Part shown: in pieces, positions 4,743 through 56,823 of the stretch
Layout of the letters: each line of letters begins with the position of its first letter
How positions within the stretch are numbered: position 1 is the stretch's first letter
Source of the DNA: Vicia villosa
Lineage: Eukaryota > Streptophyta > Magnoliopsida > Fabales > Fabaceae
Direction of reading: 5' to 3'
Length of the DNA: 64,000 bases
Assembly: GCF_029867415.1 (NCBI RefSeq)
Contig: NC_081183.1
Location: 141,747,097 to 141,811,096 of the forward strand
Position numbers and translations under genes: made by a program
Notes under the pieces: generated by a model
Database searches by the model: none
Told to the model about the DNA's origin: nothing
The model's input: only the letters and a program-made list of their open reading frames with translations

Positions 4743-7700
4743 CTACAGAAGAACACCCTTAACACTTTGTGGTGGAACCTTCTTCCAAACAACTTTAACA
4801 AGATCAACAAATAACGGAAACTGCGCAGATGCATAGAACGTGACAGGGAGGCAAATGGAAATATATAAATAGAACAAGATACTTCCCTTTGTATATTCAT
4901 CTGTGAGCACAAAGAAATGCCCAGCACAGAAGGAAACAAACATAGAGACAACGGATACAAAGAGAGAACTCAAGCCTAAAAGAAGCTTCATTGGCAAGTT
5001 GAAACGAAACTCTTCGAGTTCTTTTTGAGAAGTAAGTATAGTAAGGAACATGATGAGTGCAGTGACAGAGAAGTACAATCCAATTAATGAAGATATAGCG
5101 AATCCTTTAAATGCAGGTTGTCCTTCTAATGCTGGTTCTCCTGTTTGTTTATTGCCACCAGGTACACTGCCTGATGTTGCAAAGGAGACACCAGCAATAA
5201 GAGTAGCAACAACTGAGCATGAATTTGCTGTGTCGTTCAACCACTTAACACTGTTTTGTAGAAGTTCTTTGTGTTGCTCCTTAAATATTTCACTTGGGAT
5301 ATTTCCTTCTATGTTGACTCTATTATTGAAATTCTCTGGTACTTGTTCTTTTATGTACTATAAAAAAAATATATATTAATGCTACTTAAAATATGTGACA
5401 TATAAATATATAGTGATAAGTAATAACTAAACCCAATACTCTCTTAAGTATTTGAGGTCTCTAGGTAGGTTAGCCACAATTCTTCCGTGACAATTTTGGA
5501 GCTCTCTATTGTACCCCACCTTACCCTAAAAAATGATCCTAATTAAACAATAAATGTACCTTATACCACTTGATTTCCCACGTCAATTGCATGGCAGCAC
5601 CAGATATCCTCCAGGTTTTTTCACTCTTGAATGATGTGTAGGTTTGAAATGATGTATATGCTGCCAAGTGTAAAATGGGATTCTCATTTTTATCAATTTG
5701 TATATTTAGGTGACGAAAGACTCCTCCAGGTATAGATTTCCGCAAAAACTCAATGACAAGCGGTTGCCTGTACTTTACTGCTAAAAGCAATGCATTTTCA
5801 TTGTTAGAGTTAGTTTCATCAACCGCGCTTCTTATATTTGATTGAAGCTCTGACATCATCTCAACTATTCCATGAGTTGCTGCAATCAAATATGCTGTGT
5901 CCTTTACTTCTGTTTTAATATTCTTCAATTCTACGTATATGCCATTTTTTGGTTTTGCCGAAAATATTGTATCTTTTCCATTAATATTTGCTAAATCTTC
6001 CATTTTCTTATTTTCTTTTGTCTCTTTTATTGAGGCATCGCCTGCAAATAATCAAATATTGATTACTTTATTCTTTATATTTTAATCATGTCATTACATT
6101 AATTTTTATTTAGACTTTATTGTAATTTTGGTCCTTCTATTATCCATTTTTCTGGATTATGGTCCCTCTATTTTAAAATCCGGAATTTTAGTCCCTAAGT
6201 TTTAGTTTTTTTGAGGATTTTGATCCCCTGGAAATTCAAAGGCAATTTTAAATGAAATAACGCTCTTATTGATGATGTGTCAGTGTCACTTCAACAGTGA
6301 TTTTTTCAAAAAAACTATTTTTATTTAAGATTTTAGTTGAACATGTCATCAATGTGAGTTCCATTTTATTAAAAAGTTGCCTTCGGATTTGCAGAGGGAC
6401 CAAAACCTATAAAAATTAAAACAAAGGGACTAAAATTCCGAATTTTAAAATAAGGGGACCAAAATCTAAAAAAATGGATAATAGAGAAACCAAAATTGCA
6501 ATTAAGTCTTTTATTTATTTATTGTTATTTACCTCCTTCCTGTGCGTGCTTGATAATCTCGGGAAAATTAAGAATTTCATTTTTCATTTCGTCATCATAT
6601 TTCGTGTCATGTGATGGCTCCTCCCCACCACCCATGTATGACCAAGTAGGTGTTTTCATGAATTCTTTCAAGAGCTGACCACCATATATATGCTTCTTCT
6701 TAATAGTTTTAATTGCTTCTAAATCTGCAAAATTAATTAAGCAAAAGAGCACTTATTGATCGAGTTATGGAAACAAACTTATGTTCACTTGTCCACTATT
6801 AATGTAGACTTAAATCAAAGCATGTAAAATTAAATGTAGAAGCGTTCAATATACATACCCAATAGTGATGGGATATGCCATTTGAATGCTAAATATTTGT
6901 TTCGTATTTTGTATGCCTTTTCTAATTCCTCAACATGGTATATAGGTATTGCAACTTCACTGTTATCACATTTCTCTGCAATATTTACAAGTCATTAGTA
7001 AAAAATTGTGAGCACCATCAAATAACGAAATAACTAACTTTGTTATTTCCATTGATCAAAATTCTTATAAAATGAAAGAAAAATAGACTTAACATATTAA
7101 GCTTAGCTTCCCTCGAACTAAGACAAGTGGTTAAAAGTTATTGTAACTGATCCTATAACTGATTAAAAGTTGTTATAATAGAAAATAACAGTGGAAACTA
7201 ACTACAATACTCCAGGTTTTAAAAAACTATTCGCGACCGCGAATACGGCTGCGACAAAATGGTATTTGTGTCTTCTGATACTATTATTCACTGTTTTAAG
7301 ACTCAGGAAAAAATTGCATACGCCCGCGAAACACTGTTATAATAGTTTACACACCGTTATTGATGAAATATCAAATGGCTTTTGCATAATCAAAATATTG
7401 AAGTTTTGAACAAAATTGTTCTTTTTATTGTAAAAATAAAAAGAAGTAAATACCCTTTTTACAGGAATCATATTTTGTGTAATGTTGTGAGAAATTCATA
7501 ATGCGATGACCGTTATTTGTAACACAACACCAATACGGACCGAAATCGCGAAAACGACAACGCAACCGAAACACGGCTGCGACCGTTTTTTAAAACCTTG
7601 ACAATAATAACTTCATAAATAAATGGAATCAATAATATTTGCCAAAGGAACATGCATACTATTAATAGTTCAGGAATTTCAAAACACTAAAATAATAATG

Positions 7701-10151
7701 CAAAAGTGATCGTAAATACTAGTTCATCAGAAGCTTACCATCCTCTGCATTTTCTGTAGATATAACCTTCTTTCTATACAATTCCATTGTAGTTTTTGCA
7801 TCGTGGCAGCTTATAATAAGACCTTTGACACCAAAATTTTGTCAAGAACATTAAATGATTTTTCATGACATTTGACAAAAAAATTAAAATAATGCAAGAA
7901 AATTTCATTTGGACTTCCAAACTATCTCGTTTGTTCCAATGGAAGGTGGTATGGTGCCCATAAGCCCCAATATTGATGGCTTTCTACATTTTTTTGGTCT
8001 ACAAGGAATGGTGGTTATCATGGTATATTCAGGTAATGTCATGTTTAATAAAGCTTAATGTCCTCCGAATAGAGGAATATTAATTTTGTTAAGGAATATT
8101 GATATGGTGCATATGCCTTTAAATCTCTTCCACTTTTAGGATGATAAGTGAAAGAACCGAACCCAAGACATTATTGTAAGCAAGCTTTTACCACTATATC
8201 AATGTACATTAGTGACAAATAATTCGCATGATTTATAATAATTCGCGTGACAAATAATTCGCAAAATAGATATTCGCTCTTAAAAAAAAAAATTAAATTA
8301 TTTTTTATAATATTCAAAAGTATGTGTAACTTACAGTAGTACAAGATTTTCTTCCACCATGATAGGCTACTTTGACTCTTGAAGGCGGATGTCTTAGTAG
8401 CAAGAATTTCGAGAGGAACGACATCATCTTTGTTCTTCATAAATCTAAGACCTTGGTAGCCATACATTATTATAATTGCCAAATCTGTTGCATAAGATAC
8501 ATAGACTATTATTATTGAGAATTATTTTTATTCCAATGAAATTTAATTGATTATTTTAATTAAAATGATCAAAATATAAAGACAATTGTTCAATGAATGT
8601 ACAATTAGTGCAGTTGTGATTTGCCACAATTGAAACTTATTATGTGGTGAAACTAAAACTGAACAGTTTGTGGATCTAAGAGGTTTCAAAAGTGTGTTTA
8701 AAGGTAACCAACTACTTTCCTTTTTAATTCTCTATATCTTTTATGATATATTATATTAGGCCTTGATAAGGTCATTTTCCGAACCAAGTATTGGAACCAC
8801 AGGACCAACTTATCAGCTACTTCCCTTCAGAAGGACGAGATTCAATGTTGGGTTTGTAGGATGAAAGTGAGAGTTCGTGGCCCGACAAGTTCAGTTTTTC
8901 TCTATACTGATTTTAATATATGAAAAGAAAATGCGAGAATTTTATTTTTTTAATATAATATTTCTTTGAGTTAAATATGTTGTTGGTCTTTATAAAAAAA
9001 TTTATTTTGGCTTTTAGTCTCTATAAAAAAATCGAATTTAGTCCATATAAAATTACTTTTGCACGCAGTTTTAGTCTCTGTAGATATAAACTAAAACTGC
9101 ATGCAAAAATAATTTTATATGACTAAAACTCGATTTTTTTTATAGTGACTAAAAATTATTTTTGGTAATTTTATAGGGCTAAAAACATATTTAACCATAT
9201 TCCTTATTCATAATAATTGTTACATTTAAAAAGTTATTTGTCTCATTTTGTCAATTTAAATTAGCAGTGCAATTTTATTTTTTATTTTCCAATTATGCCA
9301 TCTATTCAATATTATTACTTATTGTTTTCTCACTTATCATTAATGATAATTTGATTACACTAATAGTTTAGTTAATAATGACAATTTGATAAATTTACTA
9401 TTCTTTCTTTTTTATTTATTATAATTTTTTAATCTATGTCCAACAGGAGAGAATAATTTCTTTTGTTAGGTACTTTTAGAAGATCTTTAAAAGAAAATTG
9501 AATATTAAAAACTAGAAAATAAATAAATAAATAAAGTAAGTAAGTAAGTAAGATATAAAGGAAAACTAACCAAACATTTCTTTCTGAATGGCAACATGAA
9601 GGATGCTAGTATTATTCTTATCGATAGCAATATTGAGATCAAGAGGATAAAACTGTTGCAGATAAATATACACCAATCTTTTACGTCCACACACAGCCCA
9701 AAAAAGTGGTGTCTCTCCATTTGCATTTTTCTCTTGAACCAAAGATTTCCTTTGACCTTCTTTTCCAATTATAACTTCACACATCTCAGTGAATCCTCTA
9801 TATGCTGCAAGGTGAAGAGGAGTTGCACCTATATCACTCAGAATTTTCAAACTACTTTCATCTCCATGCACTTCTATCGCGTCTACAAGAAACTTCACTA
9901 CGTCTGTGCGTCCATTGCTAATTGCCACGTGTAATGCTGTTCCTCTTCCCTTGATTTCTATCTTGTGATAGTTAATATCTTCATTGTATTTTTCAATTAC
10001 TTTTTTCCATTCGTCTTCCAATACTAGCTCACGGAACTCCTTAGCTACATAATTTCATTTTGCAACATGCGTTAATTAATAACAAAATGTGGAAAAGCTA
10101 TTGAGTGTTAATTTATAAGTAAAGTTTAGACTTACGTGCGTCTTCTTCCAT
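4743..10151 (-). CDS. Ankyrin-repeat protein with C-terminal PGG transmembrane domain (ACD6/ITN1-like)
   Basis: I reconstructed eight exons: 10151-10136, 10044-9571, 8484-8335, 7822-7739, 6975-6859, 6724-6533, 6041-5560 and 5357-4743. All junctions are GT...AG and keep frame, giving 709 codons without an internal stop. Residues about 30-180 hold ankyrin repeats (GTALHVAISNGRTDVVKFL, ATPLHLAAYRGF, GETPLFWAV). A second block in exon 7 has DTAYLIAATHGIVEMM, ENALLLAVKYRQP and NPILHLAAY. Exon 8 is the PGG domain: an amphipathic segment, then DTANSCSVVATLIAGVSFAT with the PGG motif at about residues 571-573, followed by about four membrane-spanning segments. Known relatives are membrane proteins linked to defence and salt or cell-death signalling; the role here is inferred. 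The 16-nt first exon is short but its ATG is in frame and lies about 90 nt below a TATA box. Three introns carry TIR elements. Exon structure should be confirmed by RNA. Confidence 0.9.
6113..6508. mobile_element. Mutator-like MITE in intron 6 of the ankyrin gene
   Basis: Long terminal inverted repeats: left gactttattgtaattttggt, right (reverse complement) gacttaattgcaattttggt, continuing with 'ggtccc'-type motifs for over 100 bp. A perfect 9-bp direct repeat, ttttattta, flanks it (6104-6112 and 6509-6517), as expected for Mutator-type insertion. No ORF inside. It makes up most of the 491-bp intron, and the right target repeat ends only 15 nt from the intron's 5' splice site at 6532. Confidence 0.88.
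7212..7600. mobile_element. hAT-like MITE in intron 4 of the ankyrin gene
   Basis: Terminal inverted repeats ccaggttttaaaaaac (left) and caaggttttaaaaaac (right, reversed), followed by GC-rich subterminal sequence (cgaatacggctgcgac / cgtgtttcggttgcg). Flanking 8-bp repeats acaatact (7204-7211) and acaataat (7601-7608) differ at one base. The 8-bp size suggests hAT. No coding sequence. Confidence 0.7.
8969..9197. mobile_element. Small TIR element (MITE) in intron 2 of the ankyrin gene
   Basis: Left end gagttaaatatgttgttggtc and right end, reversed, ggttaaatatgtttttagcc form imperfect inverted repeats, with more inverted sequence around 'tttagtctctataaaaaaat'. Flanks atatttctt and atattcctt resemble a 9-bp duplication with one mismatch and a one-base offset, so the exact ends are uncertain. 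I recognise this terminal motif as common in legume introns. Confidence 0.65.
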
Positions 10152-12871: not shown

Positions 12872-14074
12872 TGTTAGAACAAGATTTGTTCTGATCAATA
12901 TTCTTAGTTTTGATGATAACAAGGATATGAATTTTGTGTGAGATAATGTGGTACTCTAATACATTGCAATTTCCCTTTCAGGAAATATATAAAGAGTATG
13001 CACAAATCAGCGCTCAGAAGCTTTGACTCAGAAGGTTCAGCATGCATCATCAGAACATGGTCTGGCAAGACATCAGAAGATGGTCAAGGCAGAATCAGAA
13101 CATGGGTCTATGGAAGCATCAGAAGAACTTGAATTCAGAAGCAGAAGCACTGAAGTTCTCATGGTATCACGCTTAGAAGCACTTCAAGGTCAGAAGACAA
13201 GAAGATGCTATGCACCAAGCTGTTTGACTCTGATGATACTCAAACGTTGTATTCACAAACATCAGATCAGAAGAAAGTACAGGTGGCAGGCTACGCTGAC
13301 TGACAAAAGGAACGTTAGAAGCTATTAAAGGCAACGTCAGTAGACACAACGTGAACAAGGCTCGAGGTAGTTGACAAAAGCCTGAAACATTAAATGCAAT
13401 GCTGTACGGAATACGCAAAGCATTAAATGCTCCCAACGGTCATCTTCTCAAGTGCCTATAAATATGAAGTTCTGATGAGAAGCAAGGTTGACGATTTTTG
13501 TAAATATTAACTTGCTAAAACGCTGTTCAAATCAAAGCTCTCAAACTTCATCTTCATCAAAGCTCACTACATTGCTGTTGTAATATATTAGTGAGATTAA
13601 GCTTAAACATTAAGAGAAATATCACTGTTGTGATTATAGCTTTTCAGAAGCAATTGTAAAACTCTTATTTGATTACATTAATTTGTAAGTAACTAGAGTG
13701 ATCAAGTGTTGATCAGGATACTCTAGGAAGTCTTAGCTTGTGTCTAAGTAGTTGTAATTAGAGTGATCACGTAGTGGTCAGGATACTCTAAGAAAGTCTT
13801 AGCTTGTGTCTAAGCATTTGTTCCTGGAGTGATCAGGTTGTGATCAGGATACTCTAGAAGACTTAGTCGCGGACTAAGTGGAAAACCATTGTAATCTGTT
13901 GCGATTAGTGGATTAAATCCTCAGGTGAGGTAAATCACTCCGTGGGGGTGGACTGGAGTAGTTTAGTTAACAACGAACCAGGATAAAAATAACTGTGCAA
14001 ATTGTTTTTATCGTTCAAGTTTTTAGACTACACTTATTCAAACCCCCCCTTTCTAAGTGTTTTTCTATCCTTCA
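12872..14074 (+). repeat. 5' LTR of SIRE copy 1
   Basis: Begins TGTTAGAACAAG and ends TATCCTTCA. TATAAATA at 13457-13464 is the likely TATA box. An internal stretch near 13690-13870 repeats 'agtgatca...ggatactcta' three times at about 80-bp spacing. Confidence 0.95.
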
Positions 14075-14075
14075 A

Positions 14076-14093
14076 TTGGCATCAGAGCGCCGG
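14076..14093 (+). other. Primer-binding site of SIRE copy 1
   Basis: ttggcatcagagcgccgg directly follows the LTR. It resembles the standard copia site complementary to the initiator-methionine tRNA 3' end (TGGTATCAGAGC), with one T-to-C difference. Confidence 0.85.
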
Positions 14094-14160
14094 TTCTAAG
14101 GTGCAAGCACTTAACCGTGTTTAGAAAAGATTCAGGAAGAGAAAAACGCTTCAGTAAAAG

Positions 14161-16077
14161 ATGGCTGGTGAAATTCCAACAAATCCATCTGCATCTACAT
14201 CTGGCTCTGCTGAGCAATACAATGGTTATACTAGACCACCAGTATTTGATGGTGAAAACTTTGAATACTGGAAAGATAAACTAGAAAGTTACTTTCTTGG
14301 TCTAGATGGTGAACTATGGGATCTTCTGATGGATGGTTACAAACATCCAGTGAAAGCTAGTGGCGTAAGGCTTACAAGGCAAGAAATGGATGATGATCAG
14401 AAGAAGCTTTTCAAGAATCATCATAAATGTAGGACTGTTTTGCTGAATACTATCTCTCATGCTGAGTATGAGAAGATATCTAACAGGGAAACTGCCTATG
14501 ATATATATGAGTCATTGAAAATGACCCATGAGGGAAATGCTCAAGTCAAGGAGACTAAAGCTCTTGCTCTAATCCAGAAATATGAAGCCTTCAAGATGGA
14601 GGATGATGAAAATATTGAGAAGATGTTCTCAAGATTTCAAACGCTAACTGTTGGATTAAGAGTTCTGGATAAAGGCTACACCAAGGCTGATCATGTAAAG
14701 AAGATTATCAGAAGCTTACCCAGAAGATGGGGTCCAATGGTAACAGCATTCAAGATTGCAAAGAATCTGAATGAAGTTTCTTTGGAAGAGCTTATCAGTG
14801 CCTTGAGAAGCCATGAAATAGAGCTGGATGCAAACGAGCCTCAGAAGAAAGGTAAGTCTATTGCGTTAAAATCAAATGTTAAAAAATGTACTAACGCTTT
14901 TCAGGCTAGAGAAGAAGATCCTGAAGAATCAGAATCTGAAGAAGAAGATGAACTGTCCATGATCTCCAAAAGGGTAAACCAACTCTGGAAGAGCAAGCAA
15001 AGGAAGTTCAGAGGCTTCAGAAGTTCAAAGAGATTTGAACGTGGAGAATCTTCTGGTGACAGAAGATCTGACAAGAAGAAGGCTGTCTGCTATGAGTGCA
15101 ATGAGCCTGGACATTACAAGAACGAGTGTCCAAAACTTCAGAAGGAGAATCCCAAGAAGAAGTTTCATAAGAAGAAAGGTATTATGGCAACATGGGATGA
15201 TTCTGAATCAGAATCAGAATCAGACTCTGAAGGAGAGCAAGCCAACTTCGCGCTGATGGCTACAGAAGATGATGGATCAGAATCTACATCAGAATCAGAT
15301 TCTGAAGAGGTATTTTCTGAACTATCTAGAGAAGAGTTAGTTTCCAGTTTAACAGAACTTCTAGAACTCAAGGCTCATCTTAGCATCAAATACAAAAAGC
15401 TAAAGAAGCAGTTTGAATTTGAAACTAAGAAGCTGGAAGTGGAAAATTCTGAACTGAAGGAAAAAGTTTTAAATCTATCCAAAAATAGTGGATCTCCTTC
15501 TGAAACAGAAAAATCCATTCCTAGCATGAATCATATTCTGAAAGAATATGACTCGAGCTTCAGAAAGTTCTTATCTAGAAGTATTGGCAGAAGTCATCTT
15601 GCTTCTATGATATATGGTGTTTCTGGAAACAGAAGGTTTGGCTTTGGCTATGAGGGTGATTCCTCACATAAATTTGAACCTATTGATGATCTGAAGATCA
15701 CATACAAGCCATTGTATGATCAGTTCAAATATGGCCATGCACATGATATTAGGCTCACTTCACATGCACAGAGTTTTAACACTGTTCACACCAAGAAGCA
15801 TGTGACACATCCTAAGAAATATCATGCTGACAAACCTAAAGAATATCATGCTGTTCCTCCTGTTAAATATTTTGCTAAACCCAAGTTCAATCAGAACTTG
15901 AGGAGAACTAACAAGAAAGGACCCAAGAAATTGTGGGTACCTAAGGAGAAGATAATTTCTGTTGCAGATATCTTTGGCGGCAAAGAGGACAAAAAGCAAA
16001 ATGTCATGGTACCTGGACTCTGGGTGCTCGCGACACATGACGGGAAGAAGGTCTACATTCCAAGACCTGGTGCTTAA
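14161..16077 (+). CDS. gag: Gag polyprotein of SIRE copy 1
   Basis: Intact 638-codon ORF. The N-terminal 25-240 region is a copia-type Gag (UBN2/DUF4219-like) domain containing FDGENFEYWKDKLESYFLG. An acidic linker is followed by a CCHC zinc knuckle, CYECNEPGHYKNEC, at about residues 310-323. Serine/glutamate-rich repeats (SESESESDSEGE) come next and then a predicted coiled coil at about 400-460. The C-terminus ends VLATHDGKKVYIPRPGA. The last 116 nt overlap pol in a different frame. Gag should form the cytoplasmic particle that packages element RNA. The start ATG at 14161 lies 87 nt past the LTR. Confidence 0.93.
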   Translation: MAGEIPTNPSASTSGSAEQYNGYTRPPVFDGENFEYWKDKLESYFLGLDGELWDLLMDGYKHPVKASGVRLTRQEMDDDQKKLFKNHHKCRTVLLNTISHAEYEKISNRETAYDIYESLKMTHEGNAQVKETKALALIQKYEAFKMEDDENIEKMFSRFQTLTVGLRVLDKGYTKADHVKKIIRSLPRRWGPMVTAFKIAKNLNEVSLEELISALRSHEIELDANEPQKKGKSIALKSNVKKCTNAFQAREEDPEESESEEEDELSMISKRVNQLWKSKQRKFRGFRSSKRFERGESSGDRRSDKKKAVCYECNEPGHYKNECPKLQKENPKKKFHKKKGIMATWDDSESESESDSEGEQANFALMATEDDGSESTSESDSEEVFSELSREELVSSLTELLELKAHLSIKYKKLKKQFEFETKKLEVENSELKEKVLNLSKNSGSPSETEKSIPSMNHILKEYDSSFRKFLSRSIGRSHLASMIYGVSGNRRFGFGYEGDSSHKFEPIDDLKITYKPLYDQFKYGHAHDIRLTSHAQSFNTVHTKKHVTHPKKYHADKPKEYHAVPPVKYFAKPKFNQNLRRTNKKGPKKLWVPKEKIISVADIFGGKEDKKQNVMVPGLWVLATHDGKKVYIPRPGA

Positions 16078-19000
16078 ACCAGGTGGAGAAGTCAAGTTTG
16101 GAGGAGATCAGAAGGGCAAAATCATTGGCTCTGGAACCATAAGTCTTGGTAACTCTCCTTCCATAACTAATGTACTTCTTGTAGAAGGATTAACGCATAA
16201 CTTATTGTCCATAAGTCAATTAAGTGACAATGGTTATGATATAATCTTCAATCAAAAGTCTTGCAAGGCTGTAAGTCAGAAGGATGGCTCAATCCTATTT
16301 ACAGGCGAGAGAAAGAACAACATTTATAAGATTGATCTTTCTGATCTTGAGAAGCAGAAGGTGACTTGCCTTATGTCTGTTTCTGAGGAGCAATGGGTCT
16401 GGCACAGAAGATTAGGACATGCCAGTTTGAGAAAGATTTCTCAGATTAACAAACTATATCTGGTCAGAGGACTCCCAAATCTGAAATACAAATCAGATGC
16501 TCTTTGTGAAGCATGTCAGAAGGGCAAGTTCTCCAGACCTGCATTCAAGTCTAAGAATGTTGTTTCTTCCTCAAGGCCGTTAGAACTCTTGCACATTGAT
16601 CTGTTTGGCCCAGTCAAAACAGCATCTGTCAGAGGGAAGAAATATGAATTAGTCATCGTTGATGATTATAGCCGCTGGACATGGGTAAAGTTCTTAAAAC
16701 ACAAGGATGAGTCTCATTCAGTGTTCTTTGAATTCTGCACTCAGATCCAATCTGAGAAAGAGTGCAAAATCATAAAGGTTAGAAGTGATCATGGTGGCGA
16801 ATTTGAGAACAGATTCTTTGAGGAGTTCTTCAAAGAAAATGATATTGCCCATGATTTCTCTTGCCCTAGAACTCCACAGTAAAATGGAGTTGTAGAACGA
16901 AAGAATAGGACTCTACAAGAAATGGCCAGAACTATGATCAATGAAACCAATATGGCTAAACACTTCTGGGCAGAAGCAATAAACACTGCGTGTTATATTC
17001 AGAATAGAATCTCTATAAGACCTATTCTAAATAAGACTCCTTATGAATTGTGGAAGAACAGAAATCCCAACATTTCATATTTCCATCATTTTGGATGTGT
17101 ATGTTTTATTCTGAATACTAAAGATCATCTTGGTAAGTTTGATTCTAAAGCACAAAAGTGTTTCCTTCTTGGATATTCTGAACGCTCTAAAGGCTACAGA
17201 GTATACAATACTGAAACATTGATTGTAGAAGAATCAATCAATATCAGGTTTGATGATAAGCTTGGTCTTGAAAAACCAAAGCAGTTTGAGAATTTTGCAG
17301 ATTTTGATATTGATATATCAGAAGCAATAGAACCAAGAAGCAAAGCTGCAGAAGCTGATAGTCTCAGAAGCAATGGATCAGAAGATCAAGTTGCTGCATC
17401 TTTAGAGAATCTCAGGATTTCTCAAGAGCCAACAGTCAGAAGATCACCCAGACTTGTATCAGCTCATTCAGAAGATGTGATCCTTGGGAAGAAAGACGAT
17501 CCCATCAGAACAAGGGCATTCCTTAAGAACAATGCAGAATGTCAATTAGGTCTTGTTTCTTTGATCGAGCCAACTTCTGTTGATCAAGCTCTAGAAGATC
17601 CAGACTGGATGATTGCCATGCAAGAAGAACTCAATCAGTTTACAAGGAATGATGTATGGGACTTGGTTCCTAGACCAAAAGGATTTAACATCATCGGCAC
17701 TAAGTGGGTATTCAGAAACAAGCTAAGCGAGAAGGGAGAAGTGGTAAGAAACAAAGCCAGACTGGTTGCTCAAGGTTATAGTCAGCAAGAAGGGATTGAC
17801 TACACATAAACCTTTGCACCAGTGGCCAGGTTAGAATCTATTCGTCTATTAATTTCTTTTGCCACTCAACATAACATCACTCTTTATCAGATGGATGTCA
17901 AGAGTGCCTTCTTAAATGGTTATATAGATGAAGAAGTTTATGTCCATCAACCTCCTGGTTTTGAAGACTCCAAGTCTCCAAATCATGTTTTTAAATTAAA
18001 GAAATCATTATACGGATTGAAGCAAGCTCCTAGAGCTTGGTATGAACGTTTAAGTTCATTCCTTCTGGAAAATGGTTTCACTAGAGGAAAAGTGGACACT
18101 ACTCTTTTTTGTAAAACCTTTGAAAAGGATATTTTAATATGTCAAATATATGTTGATGATATCATCTTTGGAACATCTAATGCTACACTTGGAAAGGAGT
18201 TTGCTGAGTCTATGCAGGCTGAATTTGAAATGAGCATGATGGGAGAAATCAAGTATTTCCTTGGGATTCAAATCAACCAAACTTTTGATGGAACATATGT
18301 ACATCAAACGAAGTATGTGAAAGAACTTCTAAAGAAGTTTAATCTTTCTGAAAGTAAAGAAGCCAAAACTCCTATGCATCCAACATGTGTCCTAGGTAAG
18401 GATGAGGTAAGTAAGAAGGTAGATCAGAAGTTGTACAGAGGTATGATTGGATCTCTTCTATACCTAACTGCTTCTAGACCTGACATTCTCTTTAGTGTTT
18501 GTTTATGTGCTAGATTCCAATCAGATCCGAGAGAATCTCATTTAACTGCGGTTAAGAGAATTCTGAGGTATCTGAAAGGTACTACTAATGTTGGTTTAGT
18601 TTACAGAAGATCCAAAGATTACAACTTAGTAGGATTCTGTGATGCTGACTATGCTGGAGATAGAATTGAAAGGAAGAGCACTTCTTGAAGTTGTCAATTT
18701 CTTGGAAGTCATCTGATCTCGTGGTACAGCAAGAAGCAAGCTACTATTGCCCTCTCAACAACAGAAGCAGAATATGTTGCTGCTGCTGGTTGTAGCACAC
18801 AAATGCTCTGGATGAGAAGTCAGCTGGAAGATTATCAGATATATGAGAGTAACATTCCTATTTTCTGTGATAATACCTCTGCTATATGTTTATCTAAGAA
18901 TCCTATCTTACATTCAAAAGCTAAACATATTGAGATTAAACATCATTTCATAAGGGACTATGTTCAGAAGGGTGTTATATCTTTAAACTTTGTGGATACA

Positions 19001-22951: not shown

Positions 22952-23533
22952 GTTAAGATAGACATAGTTGGTATTTTGAAACAGGAAACACTTAAGGTTT
23001 TGGTTTTGTTATGGGTTTATTGTTGTTGTTCTGATGAAAAAATGAGAATATAGTACATGTATATAGTGAGAAAGATGAAACGGTAACTCAATGCATGCTG
23101 GACATGTCACAACATCTAGTTGTGTTAGGTGTATGAAGAAGACTAGGCGTGCATGCATGCAATATAGGTGTAGGTTACAGAGTAGCAGTGCATGCATTAA
23201 GTGTAGGTCTAGGTTCCATAGTAGGATGCAAGCTCGGGTTCAGACGCATGCATGTGACAGGCTAAAGTTCAGACGCATGCATGGGATAGGCTAAAGTTCA
23301 GACGCATGCATGTTACTGGACAGGGTTCAGACGCATGCAGATTATAAGCTATGGTTCAGACGCATGCGTGATAGTTGTATGGTGCTACAATAGGGAAAAG
23401 GACAAAATTGACATGTGTACATATGCGCCATTTGAAATGGCGCCTTCCAAGAAAGAGATTTTGAAGATTAGGGTTCCCGTTTTGTCTTGTAGTGAAGTTG
23501 TCTTGATGTCCCATACTGTCAGTGTGTGTTTTG
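22952..23533. promoter_or_regulatory. Upstream region of the PMD gene
   Basis: A minus-strand promoter candidate, with 'tatatac' near 23055-23062. It is rich in CATGCATG (RY-type) motifs and includes the 29-bp repeat array. A palindromic 'gcgccatttgaaatggcgcc' sits at 23426-23445; a related 'gcgccatctgagagggcgc' lies near the other end of the unit at 10926. Confidence 0.55.
23238..23382. repeat. Five-copy 29-bp tandem array with CATGCATG cores
   Basis: Copies of gttcagacgcatgcatg start at 23238, 23267, 23296, 23325 and 23354, exactly 29 bp apart. CATGCATG is the RY element bound by plant B3 factors; additional copies lie upstream at 23091-23195. Confidence 0.9.
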
Positions 23534-24162
23534 TGTAACAGCCCGAGCCTTCGGCGTTCCCGGCACTATTACCTCACGATCTTCTTTACTCCCCTCTCTA
23601 GTAAAGTTTTTGCCTTCCGTGGGAATCGAACCATGTACCCTGGGGTTCAAGTACATGTTCAATCCATTCCCACTACCAATTGAGCTAGTAGGTCAAGTGG
23701 TAGTGGGAATGGATTGAACATGTACTTGAACCCCAGGGTACATGGTTCGATTCCCACGGAAGGCAAAAACTTTACTAGAGAGGGGAGTAAAGAAGATCGT
23801 GAGGTAATAGTGCCGGGAACGCCGAAGGCTCGGGCTGTTACATAAAAAGGCTATGTAACAGCCCGAGCCTTCGGCGTTCCCGGCACTATTACCTCACGAT
23901 CTTCTTTACTCCCCTCTCTAGTAAAGTTTTTGCCTTCCGTGGGAATCGAACCATGTACCCTGGGGTTCAAGTACATGTTCAATCCATTCCCACTACCACT
24001 TGACCTACTAGCTCAATTGGTAGTGGGAATGGATTGAACATGTACTTGAACCCCAGGGTACATGGTTCGATTCCCACGGAAGGCAAAAACTTTACTAGAG
24101 AGGGGAGTAAAGAAGATCGTGAGGTAATAGTGCCGGGAACGCCGAAGGCTCGGGCTGTTACA
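23534..24162. mobile_element. Nested perfect palindrome with tRNA-like Pol III boxes (TRIM/SINE-like)
   Basis: Two 309-bp units (23534-23842 and 23854-24162) are separated by 11 bp, taaaaaggcta. Each unit is a perfect inverted repeat: 145-bp arms (tgtaacagcccgagccttcg ... cactacca) around a 19-bp loop. The loops, attgagctagtaggtcaag and cttgacctactagctcaat, are reverse complements, so unit 2 is the exact inverse of unit 1. The arms contain A-box-like tagctcaattggtagtgg or taggtcaagtggtagtgg and B-box-like ggttcgattcc. The whole is flanked by a 5-bp repeat ttttg (23529-23533, 24163-24167) and has TG...CA ends. I do not recognise the family. Confidence 0.9.
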
Positions 24163-24319
24163 TTTTGGACTTTCAAATACGGATGCTTTCGTCTAGTCCC
24201 GTCATTTTTGTATCTTTAGAATAGGCATTGATCAGTGTGCTTATATTTATCAGACATTTTTCAACTTAGGCATGTTTGTAAACAGTACGCAACAATACTC
24301 CTTATTCACCCAATACTTT

Positions 24320-24746: not shown

Positions 24747-24907
24747 ATCTCTTAGTTTTATTAATTTTTTGTTGGAAATTTCTATGTATCTTTCAATCAA
24801 CGTTGATTTTAATCAATGAATAGATGTTTTATCGTTACAATGTAGTTGTGCTGATTTTAATACTTATAATCTAAAAGTTAAACCAAAATCAAACTGCATT
24901 TAGGTAA

Positions 24908-25072
24908 AATTAGGGTTCCCCTTTTGTCTTGTAGTGATGTTGTCTTGGACAGTCAAATACACATGCTTTCGTCTAGTCCCGTCATTTTGGAATCTTTACA
25001 ACAGACATTGATCAGTGTGCTTGAATTGATCACACATTTTTCAAAGTAGGCGTGTTGATCAGTGCTGCCAAA
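24908..25072 (+). repeat. Second copy of a roughly 165-bp direct duplication
   Basis: Matches 23466-23533 joined to 24163-24285, including 'tttgtcttgtagtga', 'tgctttcgtctagtcccgtc' and 'cattgatcagtgtgctt'. The first copy is split by the palindrome, showing that the palindrome inserted later. The two copies flank the small ORF. Confidence 0.8.
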
Positions 25073-30177: not shown

Positions 30178-30252
30178 GTTATAGCTCAGTTGGCAAGTGT
30201 GTTTGTGTGAAGCGTGTCTATAGGGTCTAGGGTTCGAATCCCCCTCGCCCCA
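30178..30252 (+). other. tRNA-like segment within the LTR
   Basis: A-box-like tatagctcagttggcaag and B-box-like gggttcgaatcccc in the right order and spacing, but the ends do not pair into an acceptor stem. It is therefore not a functional tRNA gene. A counterpart lies at 36303-36372. Confidence 0.6.
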
Positions 30253-45462: not shown

Positions 45463-47300
45463 ACATGTGTGTGTGTGTTTCCCCTACAAGGGCAAGGAGA
45501 CTCAAAGGCGCTAGTAGGACGTGGATGGTGAGGCTTAGCTCATTGCGGCGAGTATCCCTGTATGGTGATTTTGTAGGCTATTTAAGGGACCTTCTCATGT
45601 GAGGTGAGAGATCCTATAAATGGTCAACGCTGCTAGCTGCAGGCGGGCGAATATGTATGACTTCAAGTCTGTCACTTATCCCCTTGAGGGATAAAGTATT
45701 TATAAAGGTCCCGGGGACTTATAGCTTTTTACCTCTTAGACGTGGTCTTAACCGCTCCCCTCTAATTGGGGGAGGTTATTGACCGCCTATCTCCCAAAAT
45801 CCGTAGGGAAGTTTTCTGGCTTGACATCTACGTTGGTGTAGCCTCTCAGGAGACCCCCTTGGATTCTTCTTGGGCTGCATAATTGGTGAGCGGGGGCAAC
45901 CTGGTCTAGGGCTTTACCAAAATAACACTACATAGTCCCTCAAGCATAGGGACTTTCGCTGACCCCTGATCCTAAACTCACCGTGAGGATGGACTCACGT
46001 GTCCTTTCTCCCTTAGACCGTGAACTAATACAGTTTTGGAGTGCAATGCCCTTTTTGTTCGAGACCATGAAGATGGCAACGGAATAGAGGAAAACCTAGT
46101 TATGAGTAAGTACCTTTTATTGGTGTTCTTACGAGATGATGAGGGTGCCCATTGATGAGAAAAGTGAGCATATGGTGAAGAAGCATTTGTGGAACAACTC
46201 CACATTAGATATCGTGGCTTTTGTCGATCATTTCTTTTCCTTTTCTAGGAACTTTCCCGGTTATTATTAGAGCCTTTTTGCCTTGTCTCCCACCCAACAG
46301 TCAACCTTGTTAGAGGTCCAGCTTATGAGGTGTTTCTTGTAACACCTTAGACTACTTTCAGGATTATCGACAGATCCCACAAACCAACACGGGTCTTCTC
46401 AGCATGATTTTTTCTTACTCACACATTTTCTGGAAAACTTCCCAAAAAGTCACCCATCCCAAAATTGCTCCAAGTCAAGCACGCTTAACTGTGGAGTTCT
46501 TATATAACATGCTACCAAAAAGAAGATGCATCTTGTTGGTATAGGTAGTATCTATCAATCCTTATATGCATTCCTTCAACTATGTATTCCCTTCCCTGCA
46601 TAGCCTCAGCATCCCTCTCATTCCAATATGGCAACTACCCTTTCCCCTTTCGACCTTAGGTGTAACATGCGGTGCTACCACTCCTCACCTTCTTCGGCCT
46701 CGGGTGTTACATTTCTAAGTGGAGAAGGTGTTAAGAGATAAGCGCTCTGATACCCTAGGGAAGATGCTGCCTGGGTGACTAACTTGAACAATCATACCTA
46801 GAAAGGCGGGTGGCGTTAAAGCATATGAAGGTAAGAAGGGATTATCAGAAGGTGCTTTCAGAAGAAGTGGCTGCCGAGGCACATATTCAGCAAGTAGAGG
46901 TGGGGGGATTGAAGAAGTTTCTCGAGGAAGCCCATAACGCTCTCGAGAGCGCGAAGGGGCGAGTCTCCTAGCTTACGGATGACGCCTTGGCGACCTCTGC
47001 TCATCATTTTGAGGAGGCAAGAAGGCGGATGGCTCTCCTCTATCCCTATCTTGATTTAAGCCCCCTGGACCCTTTAAAGGTTGTTTTGGATGGGAAGTTG
47101 GTGGATGAAGAATGACTTCTTTCCCTTTCCCCTTTTTTGTCTGCAATTTTGTTAAACCCTTCAGGGTGTTTTTTGTAATTATCTTGAACAGCGACGTCCC
47201 TTTGTGGGCGCCTTTATTTTAATTGTTTTGAGTGTTAACTGTTCTTTTTTTTTTGGCTTAATCTTAAGAGGTTTTGAGGCTATGGTCGTCTCTGACCGTG
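45463..47300 (+). pseudogene. Degraded retroelement piece with coiled-coil gag-like remnant
   Basis: 45463-45960 looks like a transcribed leader or LTR (many GC-rich motifs, no ORF). From about 45990 broken frames appear, such as SRVLSPLDRELIQFWSAMPF and EKSEHMVKKHLWNNSTLD. After the Cassandra insertion a frame from about 46810 reads MKVRRDYQKVLSEEVAAEAH and KKFLEEAHNALESAKGRVS, then TAG, then ATSAHHFEEARRRMALLYPY and ends EE-stop near 47116. The coiled-coil, acidic-basic composition suits the C-terminus of a plant transposon or gag-type protein, but I cannot name the family. Confidence 0.5.
46338..46711 (-). mobile_element. Cassandra TRIM solo LTR with 5S-rRNA-like promoter
   Basis: The element has TG...CA ends (tgtaacacctta ... 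cgggtgttaca) and a perfect 5-bp duplication tttct (46333-46337, 46712-46716). On the minus strand, 46449-46490 reads agttaagcgtgcttg followed by gggatgggtgac, the box A and box C of 5S rRNA that define Cassandra LTRs. It is 374 bp long with no internal domain or second LTR, hence solo. It sits inside the degraded retroelement reading frame. Confidence 0.92.
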
Positions 47301-51846: not shown

Positions 51847-54800
51847 TCATTCTGGGCATAAATCCATACTGATATTCTTCATAATGAACTTAAACCTATC
51901 TTCAGCAAGGGGTTTTGTAAAGATATCAGCCCATTGATGGTCTGTATCCACAAAGTTTAAAGAAACAACACCCTTCTGAACATAGTCCCTAATGAAATGA
52001 TGTTTAATCTCAATATGTTTAGCTTTGGAATGTAAGATAGGATTCTTAGATAAACATATAGCAGAAGTATTGTCACAGAAGATAGGAACATCTGTGTGCA
52101 ACAACCAGCAGCAGTAACATATTCTGCTTCTGTTGTTGAGAGGGCAATGGTGGCTTGCTTCTTGCTGTACCAAGAGATCAGGTGACTTCCAAGAAATTGA
52201 CAACTTCCAGAAGTGCTTTTTCTTTCAACTCTATCTCCAGCATAGTCAGCATCACAGAATCCTACTAAGTTGTACTCTTTAGATCTTCTGTAGACTAAAC
52301 CAACATTAGTAGTACCTTTCAGATACCTCAGAATTCTCTTAACAGCTGTTAAGTGAGATTCTCTAGGATCTGATTGGAATCTTGCACACAAGCAAACACT
52401 GAATAAAATGTCAGGCCTAGAAGCAGTCAAATATAGAAGAGATCCTATCATACCTCTGTACAACTTCTGATCTACCTTCTTACTTACCTCATCCTTACCT
52501 AGGACACACGTTGGATGCATAGGAGTTTTGGCTTCTTTGCTCTCAGAAAGATTAAACTTCTTCAGAAGTTCTTTCACATACTTCGTTTGATGAACATATG
52601 TTCCATCAGAAGTTTGATTGATTTGAATCCCAAGAAAATACTTGAGTTCTCCCATCATGCTCATCTCAAATTCAGCCTGCATAGACTTAGAAAACTCCTT
52701 CCCAAGTGAAGCATTAGAGGTTCCAAAGATAATATCATCAACATAAATTTGACAAATTAAAATATCTTTCTTAAATGTTTTACAGAAGAGAGTAGTATCC
52801 ACTTGTCCTCTAGTGAAACCATTGTTCAGAAGGAAAGAACTTAATCTTTCATACCAAGCTCTAGGAGCTTGCTTCAATCCATATAATGATTTATTTAATT
52901 TGAAAACATGTTATGGAGACTTAGAGTCTTCAAAACTAGGAGGTTGGTGGACATAGACTTCCTCATCTATATAACCATTTAAGAAGGCACTCTTAACATC
53001 CATCTGATATAGAGTGATGTTGTGTTGAGTGGCAAAAGAAATCAATAAGCGAATAGATTCTAACCTGGCCACTGGTGCAAAGGTTTCTGTATAGTCAATA
53101 CCTTCTTGCTGACTATAACCCTGAGCCACCAGTCTGGATTTATTTCTTACCACTTCTCCCTTTTCGCTTAGCTTATTTCTGAAGACCCACTTTGTACCAA
53201 TGAAGTTAAATCCTTTTGGTCTAGGAACAAGATCCCATACGTCATTCCTTGTAAACTGATTTAGTTCCTCTTGCATGGCAATTATCCAGTCTGCATCTTC
53301 TAGAACTTGATCAACAGAAGTTGGCTCGATCAAGGAGACAAGACCTAATTGACATTCTGCATTGTTCTTAAGGAATGCTCTTGTTCTGATAGGATCATCC
53401 TTCTTTCCAAGAATGACATCTTCTGAGTGAGCAGAGGTGAGTCTAGAAGATCTTCTGACTGTTGGCTCTTCAGAAATTCTGAGATTTTCTAAAGACGCGG
53501 CAACTTGATCTTCTGATCCTTTGCTTATAAGATCTTCAGCTTCTGAAACTTTGCTTCTTGGTTCTTCAGCTTCTGATATATCAATATCTATATCTGCAAA
53601 ATTCTCAAACTGCTTTGGCTTTTCAAGACCAAGCTTATCATCAAATCTGATATTGATTGATTCTTCTACAACCAATGTTTCAGTATTGTATACTCTGTAG
53701 CCTTTAGAGCGTTCAGAATATCCAAGAAGGAAACATTTCTGTGCCTTAGAGTCAAACTTAACAAGATGATCTTTAGTATTCAAAATGAAACAAACACATC
53801 AAAAGGATGAAAATATGAAATGTTGGGCTTTCTGTTCTTCCACAATTCATAAGGAGTCTTATTTAGAATAGGTCTTATAGAGATTCTATTCTGAATATAA
53901 CATGCAGTATTTATTGCTTCTGCCCAGAAGTGCTTAGCCATATTGGTTTCATTGATCATGGTTCTTGCCATTTCTTGTAGAGTCCTATTCTTTCGTTCTA
54001 CAACTCCATTTTGCTGTGGAGTTCTAGGACAAGAGAAATCATGGGCAATACCATTTTCTTTGAAGAACTCCTCAAAGAATCTGTTCTCAAATTCACCACC
54101 ATGATCACTTCTGACCTTTATGATTTTACACTCCTTCTCAGATTGAATCTGAGTGCAGAATTCAAAGAACACTGAATGAAAATCATCCTTGTGTTTTAAG
54201 AAATTTACCCATGTCCAGCGGCTATAATCATCTACGATGACTAATCCATATTTCTTCCCTCTGACAGATGTTGTTTTGACTGGGCCAAACATATCAATGT
54301 GCAGAAGTTCTAGCGGCCTAGAGGAAGAGACTACATTCTTAGATTTGAATGCAGGTTTGGAGAACTTGCCCTTCTGACATGCTTCACAAAGAGCATCTGA
54401 TTTGTGTTTCAGATTTGGGAGTCCTCTGACCAGATTTAGTTTGTTAATCTGAGAAATCTTTCTCAAACTAGCATGTCCTAATCTTCTGTGCCAGACCCAT
54501 TGCTCTTCAGAAACAGACAGAAGGCAAGTCACCTTCTGCTTCTCAAGATCAGAAAGATCAATCTTATAAATGTTGTTCTTTCTCTTGCCTGTAAATAGGA
54601 TTGAGCCATCCTTCTGACTTACAGCCTTGCAAGACTTTTGATTGAAGATTATGTCATAACCATTGTAACTTAATTGACTTATGGACAATAAGTTATGCGC
54701 TAATCCTTCTACAAGAAGTACATTAGATATGGAAGGAGAGTTACCAATACTTATAATTCTAGAGCCAATTATCTTGCCCTTCTGATCTCCTCCAAACTTG

Positions 54801-54931
54801 ACTTCTCCACCAAACTTAAGCACCAGGTCTTGGAACATAGACCTTCTTCCTGTCATGTGTCGCGAGCACCCAGAGTCCAGGTACCATGACATGTTGTGCT
54901 TTGTCTTCTTTGCTGCCAAGGATATCTGCAA
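51847..54931 (-). pseudogene. pol: Pol polyprotein of SIRE copy 2, broken
   Basis: Same domain order as copy 1: protease (YLDSGCSRHMTGRRS), HRRLGHASLRK, CEACQKGKF, integrase (HIDMFGPV, DDYSRWTWV, SDHGGEF), RT (KSAFLNGYIDEEVYVHQPP, YVDDIIFGTS) and RNase H (GFCDADYAGDR, STTEAEY). Defects are a frameshift near 53785, a stop at 52911-52913 just before the RT region around KQAPRAWYERL, and a roughly 50-bp deletion near 52090 that removes part of RNase H and shifts the frame. These differ from copy 1's defects, so each copy died independently. Confidence 0.93.
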
Positions 54932-56738
54932 CAGAAATTATCTTCTCCTTAGGTACCCACAACTTCTTGGGTCCTTTCTTGATAGTTTTCCTCAAGTTCT
55001 GATTGAACTTGGGTTTAGCATAATAAACAACAGGAGGTACATCATGATATTCTTTAGGTTTAGCAGCATGATATTTTCTAGGTTGTGTCACATGCTTCTT
55101 AGTGTGTGTAGCATGAAAGCTTTCGGCATGTGAAGTGAGCCTAATATCATGTGAGTGGCCATATTTGAACTGATCATATAATGGCTTGTATGTGATTTTC
55201 ATATCATCTACAGGTTCAAATTTGTGTGGGGTATCACCCTCATAGCCAACGTCAATCCATTTGTTTCCAGAAACACCATATATCATAGAAGCAAGATGAC
55301 TTCTGCCAATACTTCTAGATAAAAACTTTCTGAAGGAGTCATATTCTTTCAGAATATGATTGAGACTAGGAATGGATTTTTCTGATTCAGAAGGAGATCC
55401 AATATCTTTGGATAATTTTAAAACTTTTTCCTTCAGTTTAGAATTTTCCACTTCCAGCTTCTTAGTTTCAGAATCAAATAGCTTTTTCAGCTTTTTGTAT
55501 TTGATACTAAGATGAGCCTTGAGTTCTAGAAGTTCTGTTAAACTGGAAACAAGCTCTTCTCTAGATAGTTCAGAAAATACCTCTTCAGAATCTGATTCTG
55601 ATGTAGATTCTGATCCATCATCAACTGTGGCCATCAGTGCAATGTTTGCCTGTTCGCCTTCAGAGTCTGATTCTGATTCTGAATCTGAATCATCCCATGT
55701 TGCCATAAGACCTTTCTTCTTATGAAACTTCTTCTTGGGATTCTCCTTCTGAAGTTTTGGACACTCATTCTTGTAGTGACCAGGCTCATTGCATTCATAG
55801 CATGTGACCTTCTTTTTGTCAGATCTTCTGCTTCCAGAAGATTCTCCACGTTCAGGCTTCTTAGAACTTTTGAAGTTCTTGAACTTCATATGCTTGCTCT
55901 TCCAGAGTTGGTTTACCCTTCTGGAGGTCATGGAGAGTTCATCTTCTTCTTCTGATTCTGATTCTTTAGAATCTTCTTCTTCAGCCTGAAAAGCGTTAGT
56001 GCATTTTTTATAATTAGATTTTAATGCAATAGACTTACCTTTCTTCTGAGGTTCATTAGCATCCAGCTCAATTTCATGACTCCTCAGAGCACTGATCAAT
56101 TCTTCTAGAGAAACCTCATTCAGACTCTTGGCAATTTTGAAAGCAGTCACCATAGGACCCCATCTTCTTGGCAAGCTTCTGATGATCTTCTTGACATGAT
56201 CAGCCTTGGTGTATCCCTTGTCAAGAACTCTTAATCCAGCAGTTAGCATTTGAAATCTTGAGAACATTTTCTCAATGTTTTCATCATCCTCCATCTTGAA
56301 GGCTTCATATTTCTGGATCAAGGCAAGAGCTTGGGTCTCCTTGACTTGGGCATTTCCTTCATGAGTCATTTTCAATGATTCATATATATCATAGGCAGTT
56401 TCTCTGTTTGATATCTTCTCATATTCAGCATGAGAAATAGCATTCAGCAGAATAGTCCTACACTTGTGATGATTTTTGAATTCTTTCTTTTGATCATCAC
56501 TCATTTCTTGTCTTGTCAGCTTTACTCCTCTAGTTTTCACTGGATGTTTGTAACCATCCACCAGAAGATCCCATAAGTCACCATCTAGACCAAGAAAGTA
56601 ACTTTCAATTCTATCTTTCCAATATTCAAAGTTTTCACCATCGAATACTGGTGGTCTAGTGTAACCGTTGTTACCATTTCCATTGTATTGCTCAGCAGAG
56701 CCAGATGTAGATGTAGGTGTTGGATCTTCACCAGCCAT
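54816..56738 (-). CDS. gag: Gag polyprotein of SIRE copy 2
   Basis: Intact 640-codon ORF, closely similar to copy 1 throughout. It has the copia Gag domain (FDGENFEYWKDRIESYFLG), the CCHC knuckle CYECNEPGHYKNEC near residue 315, an acidic serine repeat, a coiled coil, and ends VLATHDRKKVYVPRPGA. The last 116 nt overlap pol as in copy 1. The N-terminus has a short GNGNN insertion relative to copy 1. Confidence 0.93.
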   Translation of the reverse strand: MAGEDPTPTSTSGSAEQYNGNGNNGYTRPPVFDGENFEYWKDRIESYFLGLDGDLWDLLVDGYKHPVKTRGVKLTRQEMSDDQKKEFKNHHKCRTILLNAISHAEYEKISNRETAYDIYESLKMTHEGNAQVKETQALALIQKYEAFKMEDDENIEKMFSRFQMLTAGLRVLDKGYTKADHVKKIIRSLPRRWGPMVTAFKIAKSLNEVSLEELISALRSHEIELDANEPQKKGKSIALKSNYKKCTNAFQAEEEDSKESESEEEDELSMTSRRVNQLWKSKHMKFKNFKSSKKPERGESSGSRRSDKKKVTCYECNEPGHYKNECPKLQKENPKKKFHKKKGLMATWDDSDSESESDSEGEQANIALMATVDDGSESTSESDSEEVFSELSREELVSSLTELLELKAHLSIKYKKLKKLFDSETKKLEVENSKLKEKVLKLSKDIGSPSESEKSIPSLNHILKEYDSFRKFLSRSIGRSHLASMIYGVSGNKWIDVGYEGDTPHKFEPVDDMKITYKPLYDQFKYGHSHDIRLTSHAESFHATHTKKHVTQPRKYHAAKPKEYHDVPPVVYYAKPKFNQNLRKTIKKGPKKLWVPKEKIISVADILGSKEDKAQHVMVPGLWVLATHDRKKVYVPRPGA

Positions 56739-56804
56739 CTTGACTTAAGCGTTTTTCTCTTCCTGAATCTTTTTTAAACACGGTTAAGTGCTTGCACCTT
56801 AGAA

Positions 56805-56822
56805 CCGGCGCTCTGATGCCAA
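56805..56822 (-). other. Primer-binding site of SIRE copy 2
   Basis: The minus strand reads ttggcatcagagcgccgg next to the 5' LTR, identical to copy 1. Confidence 0.85.
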
Positions 56823-56823
56823 T

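Follow-up and report, generated by a model that had tools for sequence, protein, structure and literature searches.

The window, a 64,000-bp stretch of the Vicia villosa genome, holds at positions 23534–24162 a palindrome that, to judge from its sequence, is probably a copy of a non-autonomous retroelement family whose RNA would be made by Pol III and prime its own reverse transcription, the product being inserted by the integrase of LTR retrotransposons. Passage through RNA and cDNA is suggested indirectly by the fusions of family members with retrotransposons and by the apparent recopying of their arms. We also propose, with slightly more doubt than confidence, that the family could form a separate class of retroelement without LTRs, primer-binding site (PBS), polypurine tract (PPT) or target primer, which would multiply as a self-primed rolling hairpin and be integrated by an LTR-retrotransposon integrase.

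Base-by-base comparison of the window sequence bore out the architecture described in the first-pass annotation, namely two 309-bp units with perfect 145-bp arms and 19-bp loops, the second unit being the exact reverse complement of the first. The resulting 629-bp inverted repeat around 11 bp is its own reverse complement apart from seven central bases (23845–23851), and the TGTAACA...TGTTACA ends and TTTTG duplication that had been reported are present. The 309-bp unit itself, which had been taken as the basis of the structure, gave way to a smaller one: the element is built from half-palindromes, with a palindromic linker of reduced length as its 11-bp spacer. The features were located as follows.

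23529..23533, unstranded: left target-site duplication TTTTG; the same 5 bp flank both sides
23534..23842, unstranded: module 1, a head-to-head palindrome of two a half-units (direct comparison and blastn map)
23534..23687, minus strand: a half-unit, head at 23687, tail at 23534 (blastn map)
23622..23632, minus strand: B box GGTTCGATTCC (consensus site)
23676..23687, minus strand: A box TAGCTCAATTGG (consensus site)
23679..23697, unstranded: module 1 centre (loop), the sole part with differing arms (direct comparison)
23689..23842, plus strand: a half-unit, head at 23689, tail at 23842 (blastn map)
23744..23754, plus strand: B box GGTTCGATTCC (consensus site)
23843..23853, unstranded: tail-to-tail linker TAAAAAGGCTA, the 11-bp spacer (comparison among 31 linkers)
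23854..24162, unstranded: module 2, identical base for base to the reverse complement of module 1 (direct comparison)
23854..24007, minus strand: a half-unit of module 2 (blastn map)
23942..23952, minus strand: B box GGTTCGATTCC (consensus site)
23999..24017, unstranded: module 2 centre (loop) (direct comparison)
24009..24162, plus strand: a half-unit of module 2 (blastn map)
24009..24020, plus strand: A box TAGCTCAATTGG (consensus site)
24064..24074, plus strand: B box GGTTCGATTCC (consensus site)
24163..24167, unstranded: right target-site duplication TTTTG; the same 5 bp flank both sides
24906..25056, plus strand: empty-site paralogue, a related sequence without the element, ~0.75 kb downstream of it
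46338..46711, minus strand: solo Cassandra LTR, with a TTTCT duplication on both sides

Direct comparison showed that 5 of the 19 positions mismatch in the centre of each 309-bp unit (23679, 23684, 23688, 23692 and 23697 in module 1). Compared with the insertion site, the paralogue at 24906–25056 agrees at the right edge (TTG|GAC) and is without a further 28 bp on the left side. The RNA fold of a single 309-bp unit gave z = -42.7, and since the parts also recur genome-wide, a chance origin of the palindrome is excluded. A microRNA precursor was considered and rejected, as MIR6459, MIR4416 and similar Rfam models stayed below their gathering scores on the hairpin, the alignments sharing pairing and not sequence. 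A 29-bp tandem repeat (GTTCAGACGCATGCATG...) lies directly upstream of the insertion at 23209–23382, and imperfect inverted repeats at 6112–6509 (76%) and 9012–9154 (85%) showed no match to the 309-bp unit.

The tRNA-type boxes that had been noticed on both strands were found as consensus sites, and the element holds four of the six B-box consensus sites of the whole window; the wider likeness to a tRNA did not stand, with little of it left beyond the boxes. With a cut-off of E 10, Rfam matched no tRNA to the element, and ARAGORN found none in it at default settings; only at a threshold lowered to 60% did ARAGORN call a tRNA-Phe(gaa) in the half-unit, along with doubtful tRNAs elsewhere. A true tRNA gene was rejected on this basis. 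The pair of A and B box, the tRNA-type promoter feature of Helenus/TRIMp3, is present by sequence, and GGTTCGATTC of the B box is invariant across 12 chosen heads of types a, b and c (defined below). A head stem, named from one sequence and then scored on these 12 heads (columns 15–22 with 63–70, and 29–38 with 51–61), was paired in 96% of cells, with three pairs varying on both sides (CG/UA, AU/GC, UA/CG). Its covariation score of 0.135 exceeded both the value for shuffles (0.092 ± 0.011) and the highest value obtained by sliding the stem (0.086); three two-sided pair changes were also reached by 117 of 500 shuffles, and further pair types did not exceed shuffles. As the sequences are few and related, we take this covariation as no more than supportive. 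Another pair of A and B boxes (TAGCTCAGTTGG, GGTTCGAATCC), perhaps a SINE, lies outside the palindromes at 30182–30241.

We searched the window's own assembly (2,034,964,285 bases, 2.03 Gb, in 1888 contigs) for relatives. The first 167 bp of the element gave 102 matches, from 40 scored of 1088 candidates, and the window together with 37 fetched loci made up a set of 38. These loci are the best-scoring part of the 1088 candidates and not a random sample, so the set leans to type a. Across the 38 loci the basic unit is a half-palindrome of about 154–195 bp with a Pol III-like head and a tail ending in CA, and comes in three types: a (154 bp), b (~194 bp) and c, which is b with a different tail. 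Types a and b share their first 82 bp at 81–86% identity, with both boxes inside this stretch. Each half has TGTTACA at the end of its tail; where the joint is internal, T(T)AAAA(A)GGC comes next.

Half-units are joined in alternating orientation at 96 of 105 junctions, comprising 65 head-to-head and 31 tail-to-tail junctions; the nine same-direction junctions count against strict alternation. These counts were parsed by script, with some truncated halves included and the near-duplicate locus L015 kept where it has junctions. The head-to-head joint is a self-complementary centre and the tail-to-tail joint a palindromic linker. The modules seen were aa, bb, cc and mixed (b|a, b|c, c|a), and elements consisted of a single module at the shortest (L017, L019, L027) and of at least four at the longest (L038, L040). 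The head-to-head dimer form proposed from the window copy is thus borne out by the 65 head-to-head junctions, dimers being usual in the loci seen. No match to the element was found in viral, plasmid and phage collections.

The outer ends of the elements are module tails (TGTAACA/TGTTACA) without the linker. Module tails stand at both outer ends in 31 of the 38 loci, and 23 of these 31 show an exact 5-bp duplication, one of which is shared by the near-duplicates L014 and L015. The integrase-like reading of the ends and duplication therefore holds for the family, with TG...CA in other copies. Six of the eight loci without an exact duplication (L010, L018, L024, L030, L034, L045) have two module ends and show no duplication, which counts against the explanation that we favour. 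The remaining two are a fusion (L016) and L044, for which a gag fusion was considered and rejected; we read it as an insertion flanked on either side by ATTAT, with a linker remnant (TGCCTTTTTA) kept on the left. Both module-tail ends are not present in seven loci, four of them fusions (L022, L028, L033, L042) and the others L036, L039 and L043, the last with GTTGT on both sides by eye and a TATTACA end. In L018, an apparent host coding region with short linker repeats follows the linker half (2301–2500), and this locus looks more like a repaired break than a clean insertion.

Analysis of the 31 tail-to-tail junctions showed a family linker, T(T)AAAA(A)GGCGCCTTTTT(A)A, of 11–22 bp. Its GGCGCC core is present in 30 of the 31, the window's TAAAAAGGCTA being the exception. 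An exact search of the genome for this pattern found it 343 times forward and 349 times in reverse, mostly at the same sites because the linker is nearly palindromic; a reversed control gave 0. The two halves of the linker track the type of the half-unit beside them, with one T on the a side in 24 of 32 cases and TT on the b and c sides in 28 of 28. As its parts follow their own half, the linker resembles a pair of tails that have been joined at GGC|GCC. The sense (outgoing) strand is free of TTTT in all 116 full a and b halves, an absence that is not significant given that 84% (a) and 66% (b) of shuffles also have none; the opposite strand has TTTT in 115 of 116. The first T-run met on the outgoing strand is the linker's T5 in all three representatives that have a linker. 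In the window, half-unit 24009..24162 has no TTTT on its sense strand, and the first T-run downstream is the TTTTG duplication, whose four Ts could serve as a Pol III stop.

These linkers bear on the first alternative, a TRIM of the Helenus type in which the 309-bp modules would be palindromic LTRs and the linker a degenerate internal domain. The 5-bp duplications, TG...CA ends, tRNA-type boxes like those of Helenus, and fusions with Cassandra and gypsy elements all fit such a TRIM. Against this, the linkers at all 31 tail-to-tail junctions are 11–22 bp long and none contains a PBS. The one purine run in them, the A-run with GG, gives way to pyrimidines and does not abut the next TG, so that a PPT before a 3' LTR was not found in the 31 linkers. 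A search of the genome for an exact a tail with an initiator-tRNA binding site within 8 bases gave 0 hits, the search covering this tail and this primer tRNA. Mapping and the junction survey showed no direct LTR pair flanking an internal domain in the 38 loci. Moreover, 24 of the 31 linkers join different half types, which would not be expected of LTR duplication, and mixed modules such as b|a occur. The alternative is already weakened on present evidence, and we consider it unlikely. Of the earlier suggestion of a TRIM-like or SINE mini-retroelement, mobility and TRIM-like behaviour remain, and the TRIM structure, with its direct LTR pair and PBS, does not.

We then compared the two arms of each aa module, using full halves only, dropping L015 as a near-duplicate of L014, and counting substitutions and not 1-base gaps. 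Outside the centre, 21 of 33 modules had no arm substitution, while 5000 random re-pairings gave a mean of 1.5 such modules and a maximum of 6; the median number of differences between halves taken from separate loci is 7. This excess suggests that the arms are recopied at each round. A separate arm profile, which includes two truncated modules (L023, 221 bp; L026, 259 bp), showed 1-base gaps between the arms in L029, L034 and one module of L038. The arms differ in the other 12 modules, so not every module is a self-copy. They contain 67 differences, and for 44 of these each of the two variants is also present in two or more halves from elsewhere in the locus set; the modules therefore appear to join two different parents.

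The centres behave differently from the arms, since 13 of the 21 modules with identical arms still mismatch within the centre. Our reading of these sequences is that the centre would be inherited with the RNA and the arms beyond it renewed; the eight of 21 modules without a centre mismatch count against it. The presumed boundary between the two would lie ~10 nt upstream of the A box, where the edge of the module 2 centre is found, and Pol III is expected to start near this point. Exact 18-nt centres occur 186 times genome-wide (control 0). A hand count of the first 50 listed of these gave 43 with T/G edge bases, 5 with G/G and 2 with T/T, an excess of T/G with P = 2e-7 if centres were independent, which nearby centres are not. 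In the 38-locus set the excess was milder: the 38 classified 19-nt centres comprised 25 T/G, 10 T/T and 3 G/G, with six 18-nt centres counted apart and 16 centres of neither type. In L040, the arrangement b-linker-a|a-linker-b forms a 1123-bp inverted repeat at 99.9%, which fits one strand that folded at the head and whose copying then took in a half, its linker and an entire b module.

Further evidence came from five of the 38 loci, which we read as single insertions and where LTR-retrotransposon sequence is joined to modules. In L033, a complete Cassandra is joined at TAC to the head of an a half-unit, and CCAAT flanks the whole; this Cassandra consists of an LTR (1142–1515), a 71-bp internal part with a reverse PBS and a second LTR (1587–1959), and the LTRs are identical over 373 bp. 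In L016/L046, GTTTC flanks an aa module followed by TAAAAAAGGCGCC and an antisense Ty3/gypsy gag-pol (gag, protease, reverse transcriptase, RNase H and integrase-type domains), a reverse PBS and a presumed LTR, which was recognised by the PBS and end motifs and not by comparison with a second LTR. In L049/L022, ATGAT flanks an LTR element with ATAGTG after its 3' LTR, then a-linker-b-b; its LTR pair is 99.1% identical over 1911 positions and ATAGTGGTATCAGAGC follows the 5' LTR. As ATAGTG also follows the 5' LTR, the fused end looks like a cDNA end left untrimmed by integrase.

Two further fusions join modules to an antisense leader, PBS and inferred LTR (L028, ATTAC; L042/L052, TTGAT) and are weaker cases; L028 is weaker than L033, L016 and L022. 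The outer LTR end in L028 was found by a duplication scan that gave two CA+ATTAC matches, one of them ~330 bp after the PBS. The LTR in L042, recognised by its similarity to an LTR-like stretch in L036, is split by several kb that we take to be a later insertion. That stretch of L036, starting TATAACACCCC and joined to the head of a c half (2310–2700), is a candidate sixth fusion; a GCACG duplication was not found at a fitting place in L036 or L051. As the fusions sit inside single duplications, our own reading places the element in the compartment where LTR retrotransposons are reverse transcribed. For L016, L028 and L042, a switch of the plus strand onto module DNA could explain the fusion in place of RNA-primed synthesis.

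Fusions and arms together bear on a second alternative, a foldback or MITE-like DNA transposon with a captured tRNA promoter, its arms equalised by gene conversion or hairpin repair. Such a transposon would account for the long terminal inverted repeats, the conserved end sequence and the near identity of arms within copies. It does not account for LTR-retrotransposon fusions inside one duplication, one of them carrying the ATAG-TG of an LTR/PBS junction, or for two-subfamily modules that are not homogenised and whose differing arm variants occur elsewhere. To our knowledge, no plant transposase combines the element's end with a 5-bp duplication. We regard this alternative as improbable.

A tRNA-derived SINE, inserted by target-primed reverse transcription and joined head to head by chance, would explain the A and B boxes at the head and the half-unit length. 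It is already contradicted by the fusions and by duplications of exactly 5 bp at TGTTACA, and the regularity of the dimers also speaks against it. The displayed tails of the loci contain no poly(A) besides the linker's own A-run, and the single tRNA-SINE copies with poly(A) and without TG...CA, which the first-pass annotation had named as refuting its reading, were not met. We thus see very little room for a SINE. Least credible of all is an artefact of assembly or fold-back reads, for although long perfect palindromes are an assembly hazard, the window palindrome stops at its duplications, inverted-complementary flanks occur in 0 of 38 loci, and copies lie on many contigs with unlike flanks and duplications of their own.

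The self-primed retroelement that we favour would work as follows. Pol III would start at the head of a half and transcribe as far as the T-run in the linker. The 3' end of this RNA would be AAAAAGGCGCCUUUUU, which is self-complementary, so two RNAs could pair and prime each other. On arriving at the head, the cDNA would fold on the self-complementary centre and copy itself, and the growing strand may run on through the linker and round the next head. Repeated rounds would amount to a rolling hairpin and yield alternating chains such as -b+b-a+a-b+b. LTR retrotransposons would supply the enzymes, both those of Ty3/gypsy type and the one that serves Cassandra; their integrase would trim the linker to CA and insert the product. 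Single-module copies should be dead ends, because only linker-facing halves hold the tail for a next round.

Self-primed initiation of reverse transcription is known from Tf1, and parvoviruses copy round their hairpin ends by a rolling hairpin. The likeness is one of analogy and not of homology; here, both linker and head are self-complementary and the template is presumably a Pol III RNA. Like tRNA-derived SINEs, the element has a Pol III-like head and a short non-coding unit; it differs in the absence of an A tail among the tails seen, its fixed 5-bp duplication, integrase-type ends and inverted dimers. Foldback and MITE elements share its long inverted repeats and near absence of internal sequence, and not its retrotransposon fusions, 5-bp duplications or Pol III boxes.

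By insertion and promoter, the element works like Helenus and Cassandra, which are its nearest known counterparts. It resembles Helenus in having A and B boxes in a short non-coding unit and 5-bp duplications (Kojima 2024, PMC10886601). According to that paper, Helenus presumably depends on LTR retrotransposons, makes 5-bp duplications in fungi and plants, and is reported from one plant species, Selaginella (PMC10886601). In Helenus, a PBS and a PPT lie between a pair of direct LTRs (as described in PMC10886601), whereas our loci are chains of inverted half-palindromes in which none of these was found; the words palindrom, inverted and hairpin are absent from the main text of that report. Six stretches of the element sequence sought in the open-access literature gave no match, and a description elsewhere is possible.

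The element shares with Cassandra the TGTAACA-like/TGTTACA ends, a Pol III-type promoter, the 5-bp duplication and the host genome; LTRs, PBS and a 5S-derived promoter belong to Cassandra. The nearby Cassandra LTR that had been pointed out in the window is real, with TTTCT on both sides, and over 46338–46710 it shares 82.8% identity with the LTR that the complete Cassandra of L033 carries; the 5S promoter ascribed to it was seen by eye only. Rfam gave no match to this LTR up to E 10, missing the stretch that we take to be 5S-like, and its 5S model likewise failed to match the element at this cut-off. Similarity between the half-unit and this LTR is confined to the terminal 13–14 bp and is weak, as 215 of 5000 shuffles that kept the end motif reached its score. 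Homology to Cassandra beyond the end motif was rejected, there being no significant alignment.

If self-priming were proven, the element would deserve a class of its own. It would represent a route of small RNAs into genomes unlike that of SINEs, which are target-primed, or TRIMs, which are tRNA-primed and LTR-based, with palindromic ends alone starting and continuing reverse transcription within an LTR-retrotransposon particle. It would also place a tRNA-promoter element of such a kind in a seed plant, where PMC10886601 names only Selaginella among plants. The hundreds of palindromic joints would be natural sources of hairpin RNA and genome instability. As records of template switching, the fusions suggest which retrotransposons share a particle, Cassandra among them, for which, according to PMC10886601, no autonomous partner is indicated.

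Two other observations concern the remainder of the window. A pair of retrotransposons in opposite orientation (13759–18808 and 52086–57139), Copia by eye, is 91% identical over 5.08 kb, and a 536-aa reading frame at 61521–63131 looks by eye like a berberine-bridge-type oxidase.
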